Assembly: GCA_036504215.1 (NCBI GenBank)
Contig: DASXVO010000001.1
Coordinates: forward strand, 1-32,346
Length of the DNA: 32,346 nucleotides
DNA from: Vicinamibacterales bacterium
Lineage (GTDB): Bacteria; Acidobacteriota; Vicinamibacteria; Vicinamibacterales; Fen-181
Direction of reading: 5' to 3'
The notes beneath the pieces were generated by a model. That model was not told the DNA's origin, searched no databases, and saw nothing but the letters and a program-made list of their open reading frames with translations. How positions within the stretch are numbered: position 1 is the stretch's first letter; every line of letters begins with the position of its first letter. Position numbers and translations under genes: made by a program. Below are positions 27,714 through 29,310 of the stretch, piece after piece.

Positions 27714-28058
27714 ATGACGATGACGACGTTCAGTGCCGAGTTGAAGAAGGGGGGGATGGAGATGCTCATCCTGTCCCTGCTCGAGGCGCGCCCGCGCCAC
27801 GGATACGAAATCGCGAAGCTGATCGAGTCGCGGTCGGGCGGCCAGCTGCACTTCGCGCTCGCGTCCGTCTACCCGGCGCTCCTGCGCCTGGAGGGCCGGG
27901 GCTACGTCAAGGGTCGCTGGGTCGAGGAGCCCGGCACGCGTGCCCGCTGCTTCTACCGGCTCACGGCCGCGGGCCGGAAGATGCTGGCGGCGCAACAAGA
28001 CACCTGGAAGGCCTACATTGCGGCGGTGGAGCAAATCATGGGAGGCGGCCATGCGTGA
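27714..28058 (+). CDS. PadR-family regulator, 114 aa
   Basis: Winged-helix repressor. Seen: SAELKKGGMEMLILSLLEAR, PRHGYEIAKLIESRSGGQLH, FALASVYPALLRLEGRGYVK and RARCFYRLTAAGRKMLAAQQ. The ending EQIMGGGHA overlaps the start of the following permease gene by eight bases, indicating coupled translation. This PadR is of a slightly different subgroup from the other two (ASVYPALLRLE versus [11 protein letters not shown]). The perfect palindrome just upstream suggests autorepression. Its target permease is broken. Confidence 0.95.
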   Translation: MTMTTFSAELKKGGMEMLILSLLEARPRHGYEIAKLIESRSGGQLHFALASVYPALLRLEGRGYVKGRWVEEPGTRARCFYRLTAAGRKMLAAQQDTWKAYIAAVEQIMGGGHA

Positions 28059-29218
28059 CTGGGATGCCTTCATTCGAGGTCACCTTCCCCTGCCCGGGCG
28101 ATTGAGGGGCGTTCCGCGACCGCGTAGTCCGCGAGTTGGCGAATCAGCTGCACGATGCGTGCGAGGACCGTCGGCGGCGGGGGATGACGGAGGACGAGGC
28201 CAACGCATTCGCGCTGGCGCAGGTCGGTGACTGGACGGCGTTCGCGGCCGCGCAGCAGGACGCGACCCGCGCCGCCGCCCTCCCGGGCCTGGCGCGAGCG
28301 CACGGTTGCCTCGAGACCATCGGCGAGCGGTCGCACGGCTGGCGATCGTTCTCGGCAGGCCTCGGCACGGACCTCCTGCTGGCCCTCCGGGTGCTGCGCG
28401 CGCAGCCCGGGTGTGCAGCCGTCGCTCTCGGCGTGCTGGCTCTCGCGATTGGCGCCGCCACGGCCATCTTCTCGGTGGTCGATGCGGTCGTGCTCCGCAG
28501 CCTGCCGTTCGACGACTCCAATCGCATCCTGGCGGTGGTCGAGCACGATCCGAAGCGAGTCGAGACTCTCGGCGGCGGGCTCACCTCGGCACCCACCTAT
28601 CTCGACTGGCGGCATCACCAGAGCTCGTTCGAGGGGCTGGCCGCGGTTGGAAACACGGCGTTCAGATCCCGCACGCCGTCCGGCGAACCGTCCGCGGCGC
28701 GGGCGCAATCGGTCACGTGGGAGTTCTTCCAGGTCCTGCGCGCCGCCCCGCTGTTGGGCCGCGTGATCAGGGCGGACGACGAGATCCGCGGCCGCCATCA
28801 CGTCGTGGTTCTCGGCCACGCGTTCTGGCAGCGGCAGTTCGGTGGCGCGCCTGACGTGGTGGGCCGGACGGTGGACCTCGACGAACAGCGGTGGCAGATC
28901 GTCGGCGTGATGCCGCCGGGCTTCACCTATTCCGTTGCCGGCAGTCGCCCCACCGACCTCTACGTACCGCTGGCGTTCGACGAGGCGGAATGTTCGCGGG
29001 ACAGCGGTCAGAGTTTCGCCTACACCGCGATCGGGCGCCTGAAGCCAGGCGTGACGCTGGCGCAGGCTGGTGATCAGATGGGCCGTATGGCTGCAGGCCT
29101 CGATCGGCAGTATCCCACCTGGACGCCGGGCCGGACCGCCCGTGTTGTCTCTCTGCAGGACCGCCTGGTCGGCCGGGTGCGGTCCTGGATGCTGATGCTG
29201 CTGGCGGCCGGCGCGCTC
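28051..29218 (+). pseudogene. ADOP-type permease, frameshifted and 3'-truncated
   Basis: ATG 28051 (MRDWDAFIRGHLPLPGRL) overlaps the PadR stop. The expected continuation (FRDRVVRELANQLHDACEDR) lies in another frame; removing one G from the run at 28106-28109 joins them. From there the frame is good ADOP: helix 1 (LALAIGAATAIFSVVDAVVL), core 1 (FWQRQFGGAPDVVGRTVDLD, then QIVGVMPPGF), up to [17 protein letters not shown], the beginning of the second helix block. At about base 29218 similarity ends abruptly; roughly 500 C-terminal residues are missing. The frame runs on to 29371 through unrelated sequence. Even with the frameshift repaired the protein would be non-functional as a transporter. 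Confidence 0.88.
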
Positions 29219-29310
29219 GGATGGACGAGCAGTGTGCCGAGCCGGCCGAGGCCCTCGACATCCCGGCTGGTCGCTGGCCGGACGATGGGCTGGGGCGACG
29301 TGGCGGTCAT
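29219..29310 (-). pseudogene. GNAT N-acetyltransferase 5' fragment
   Basis: ATG 29308-29310 overlaps the stop of the preceding oxidoreductase gene (ATGA arrangement). The peptide reads [20 protein letters not shown] then [10 protein letters not shown], the standard N-terminus of a GNAT acetyltransferase (I-R-x-A-x-x-x-D, then a helix). After about 30 residues it runs into the reverse complement of the truncated permease gene. The rest of the acetyltransferase is absent. Confidence 0.6.

Follow-up and report, generated by a model that had tools for sequence, protein, structure and literature searches.

The window, by which we mean the whole stretch of DNA analysed, is one entire contig of 32,346 bases from a genome assembly of 90 contigs and 5.9 Mb. 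Acidobacteria-type PadR regulators and ADOP permeases (MacB/FtsX-like duplicated permeases) are both encoded on this contig, from which the genome is probably acidobacterial. A TIGR03434 profile search of the whole genome identified about 30 complete ADOPs, including four in the window, all four of which are free of stops and frameshifts. To the right of these lies a PadR gene followed by a permease fragment, which converge on a 29-codon gene start, an SDR-type oxidoreductase gene (SDR), and an aldo/keto reductase gene (AKR), with a LysR-type regulator gene divergent from the last (Table 1). Elsewhere in the window, an apparently truncated fragment of a Big_5 (bacterial Ig-like) protein (22911-23570, minus strand) is flanked by a complete ADOP gene on one side and by an AAA_14/DUF4143 ATPase gene (21521-22834) on the other; the segment at 22776-22990, at and just before the start of the ATPase gene, has 82-86% identity to stretches on contigs C52 and C81 of the same genome, and to a stretch in a sister genome. 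Close to the end of the contig, at 32248-32289, lies a palindrome, CTCGACAGGCTCGGGGTGCCCTGAGCTTGTCGAAGGGC, that resembles dispersed repeats of the type able to end contigs.

Table 1. Features of the PadR-permease locus and complete ADOP genes in the window.
Feature	Position	Strand	Evidence
Complete ADOP permease	3764-6238		TIGR03434
Complete ADOP permease	7035-9434		TIGR03434
Complete ADOP permease	18113-20596		TIGR03434
Complete ADOP permease	23579-26002		TIGR03434
Sigma-70-like promoter before PadR, TTGACA-17-TATAGT	27658-27686	+	11/12 consensus matches
Perfect dyad, TAGTCA-GCG-TGACTA; candidate PadR operator	27683-27697	none	Overlaps promoter -10
PadR regulator, intact, 114 aa	27714-28058	+	PF03551, 76.7 bits; TIGR03433, 103.2 bits
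ADOP permease, 5′ part	28051-29219	+	TIGR03434 model 2-279/803, 269.5 bits; MacB_PCD 3-205/207
Frameshift in short G run, approximate site	28106-28109	+	Prefix domain in second frame only
Junction: ends of permease similarity and of minus-strand coding-like stretch	29215-29224	none	TIGR03434, paralog alignments, codon usage
Truncated gene start, 29 codons	29224-29310	-	Codon score +11.3 bits; ATGA overlap
NAD(P)H-binding SDR-type oxidoreductase, intact, 195 aa	29307-29894	-	PF13460, 165.1 bits, profile 1-184/184
Aldo/keto reductase (AKR), intact, 328 aa	29936-30922	-	PF00248, 239 bits, profile 2-288/291
LysR-type regulator, frameshifted at ~31575, divergent from AKR	31009-31894	+	LysR_substrate 2-106 / 102-205 in different frames

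The PadR protein scores above the curated cut-off of the acidobacterial PadR model TIGR03433 (103.2 vs 101.8 bits), and its gene is preceded by a promoter of a quality for which 0.2 matches are expected in shuffled sequence. The dyad over this promoter, TAGTCAgcgTGACTA, has no second copy in the genome when up to one mismatch is allowed, a threshold at which more diverged operators elsewhere would be missed; it is a plausible private operator of PadR. A literature search for the PadR-ADOP pairing returned no paper, and plasmid relatives of the PadR side of the locus were confined to PadR-level matches in Gemmatirosa.

That the permease belongs among the ADOPs is indicated by the adjoining PadR-type regulator gene (27714-28058, above the TIGR03433 cut-off), whose stop is overlapped by the permease ATG at 28051 as ATGCGTGA. 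However, its match to TIGR03434, which spans window positions 28364-29215, reaches only 269.5 bits against a curated cut-off of 622.3 bits over 803 positions, and the last two-thirds of the gene are lost (model positions 280-803 are missing); judged by these model matches, it is a fragment of an ADOP member and not a working one. Nor is the fragment a clean 5′ part of the gene, which corrects the sequence-only reading. The main permease frame (28106-29371) is offset from that of the ATG at 28051, and the N-terminal prefix domain (NF038403, positions 11-52) is recognised only in this second frame, from 28106 on, which places a frameshift at roughly 28106-28109. Translation from the ATG gives MRDWDAFIRGHLPLPG; alone, this peptide matches no family model, and it resembles the start of prefix-bearing permeases. 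Because both permease halves are lost and there is a frameshift near the start, we read the permease as a pseudogene.

Several paralog alignments of the permease end at one residue, at about 29219, and the closest ADOP paralog found has 40% identity to the fragment. The permease had been thought to stop at 29218; this describes its similarity, which ends at 29215-29219, but not its 411-codon frame, which continues past the junction to a stop at 29369-29371. A frame open to this extent, with codon usage that is coding-like up to the junction, might suggest a functional half-length permease composed of one membrane helix, a periplasmic domain, and an antisense tail under PadR control. We think this very unlikely, as the frameshift lies between the translation start and the main frame, the tail has no domain recognised in Pfam or NCBIfam, and about half of the 150-base plus-strand windows on this GC-rich contig are open by chance. 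It is harder still to credit that the half-permease has turned sensor or decoy, as a one-helix periplasmic-domain protein with an antisense tail and a private PadR operator.

On the minus strand, the 29 codons from 29310 to 29224 score +11.3 bits, whereas scores for the other five frames range from -19.6 to +2.3. The start codon overlaps the SDR stop as ATGA, and the overlap is exact at 29307-29310, as the sequence-only reading had it. The same reading had this gene stop after about 30 codons, which holds for the coding-like stretch but not for the frame, open until a stop at 29074-29076. The 29-residue peptide, which to us resembles the opening strand and helix of GNAT acetyltransferases, carries the motif VRPAT..D...L, for which other loci gave a single match in 1.45 million residues, and it is this short N-terminal motif that makes it GNAT-like. 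A GNAT identity, as proposed earlier, has the motif but no family, structure, plasmid, or genome match, for which 29 residues are a weak test: with so short a query, of low power, we found no match in PF00583, other Pfam families, NCBIfam, PDB, or plasmids, nothing beyond chance in the family, in 395 other genomes of the phylum, or in 369 genomes of another class, and chance-level matches only in the 20 genomes holding SDR relatives. There are 17 GNAT genes in the genome by PF00583, among which the missing 3′ tail would be unrecognisable without a relative of the fragment.

The SDR gene is intact, as had been claimed, and so is the AKR gene, with full-profile matches above the PF13460 and PF00248 cut-offs, respectively. 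The SDR has 50 relatives with 41-75% identity in Bacillota, Pseudomonadota, Myxococcota, and others, whereas 161 other genomes from its order contain none at E <= 1e-30; the AKR is 88% and 85% identical to AKRs of two sister genomes, in which no SDR lies beside it. SDR relatives often adjoin an AKR gene, and since this adjacency recurs in many phyla, AKR+SDR is a widespread gene pair. Its extension to a former operon of AKR, SDR, and acetyltransferase genes fares less well. The ATGA overlap suggests that a three-gene operon is possible in this lineage, and the widespread AKR+SDR adjacency accords with it, but the sister genomes lack the SDR and a GNAT gene lies directly downstream of the SDR on the same strand in none of 10 relatives, in which that position is occupied by CMD, Fe-ADH, Na/H exchanger, AKR, ApbE, MFS (two), intron maturase, and MerR genes, and by one without a family.

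The permease similarity and the minus-strand coding signal end at one point, bearing out the claim of two truncated genes lying tail to tail, one of them a PadR-linked permease. In a sliding codon-usage profile, plus phase 2 gives way to minus phase 1 as the coding phase near 29220, and both frames run about 50 codons past the junction, each through the other's antisense strand. Repeats at the junction are limited to chance-like short matches, and no mobile-element gene beside it is recognised by Pfam or NCBIfam. The sister genomes do not have this locus in synteny, and no unbroken ancestor was seen among them.

Deletion and inversion had both been offered as the origin of the breakpoint. Two truncated genes lying tail to tail are what would be left at one side of an inversion or translocation that had carried their missing halves to another part of the genome. 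However, a TIGR03434 search of the 5.9-Mb assembly revealed no headless piece corresponding to the missing part (280-803) and beginning near 280; the genome holds only full ADOP copies or unrelated short C-terminal pieces, the latter beginning at 510 or later. Inversion or translocation is thus left unsupported and we consider it very unlikely, whereas deletion fits, and is the simplest account because no ADOP piece from about 280 is present elsewhere whereas about 30 complete ADOPs are. We conclude that this is probably a decayed PadR-ADOP permease locus with a deletion breakpoint.

A less likely explanation, but one to be taken seriously, is an assembly chimera, in which sequences unrelated to one another, both from this genome or one from a relative, became joined at 29219, and the organism has the permease and the third gene in full. 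The assembly is fragmented and its estimated contamination is 3.45, the junction is covered by no syntenic relative, and a pair of frameshifts within 4 kb toward the end of the contig, the second being in the LysR gene at a short G run at about 31575, suggests weaker sequence. Because both frameshifts (~28106 and ~31575) are in short G runs, they could be base-calling errors near the contig end, although two in 4 kb, compared to none in the four complete ADOPs on the contig, fit with local decay. Weighing against a chimera, the rest of the assembly did not yield the missing permease part, the junction is in no repeat longer than chance level, and with the closest ADOP paralog found only 40% identical, a mix-up of paralogs is unlikely. 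Both sides of the junction fit with a single genome: that with the AKR is native to the genus, and that with the permease is from the ADOP family, which fills the genome.

In our preferred reading, a deletion would have taken out the 3′ two-thirds of the permease and the greater part of a third, convergent gene that followed the AKR-SDR pair, so that the two remnants meet tail to tail near 29219; we infer that this caused the abrupt end of both similarity and coding signal. PadR would be left without a working permease behind it, and the intact protein probably continues to repress the promoter of its own gene by way of the putative dyad operator. As the dyad is unique in the genome, PadR may be an orphaned regulator, and the suggestion that PadR and its candidate operator may lack a working target is a reasonable one. 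Loss of the permease is probably tolerated, because about 30 complete ADOPs are present elsewhere in the genome. We regard the junction as an unremarkable scar of gene decay in a many-copy family, or else possibly a joint made in assembly. At this locus a single copy from a very large permease family (about 30 complete copies) is seen decaying while its regulator and operator persist, which provides a small natural example of how family turnover leaves orphan regulators; it leaves the general picture unchanged.

The adjacency and orientation of the AKR and SDR genes are the same as in the AKR-SDR pairs of several Bacillota, Pseudomonadota, and others, with the difference that here a further start overlaps the SDR stop and leads into a truncated gene, which is absent from the relatives examined. 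In deletion-derived pseudogene junctions of bacteria, two genes likewise break off abruptly at a single point without a mobile element, and nothing distinguishes the 29219 junction from them. With PadR-ADOP pairs (TIGR03433 with TIGR03434) the locus shares an acidobacterial-type PadR gene directly upstream, the overlap between the permease start and the PadR stop, the N-terminal prefix, and the MacB_PCD domain; it differs in that only the first third of the permease remains, frameshifted near its start.
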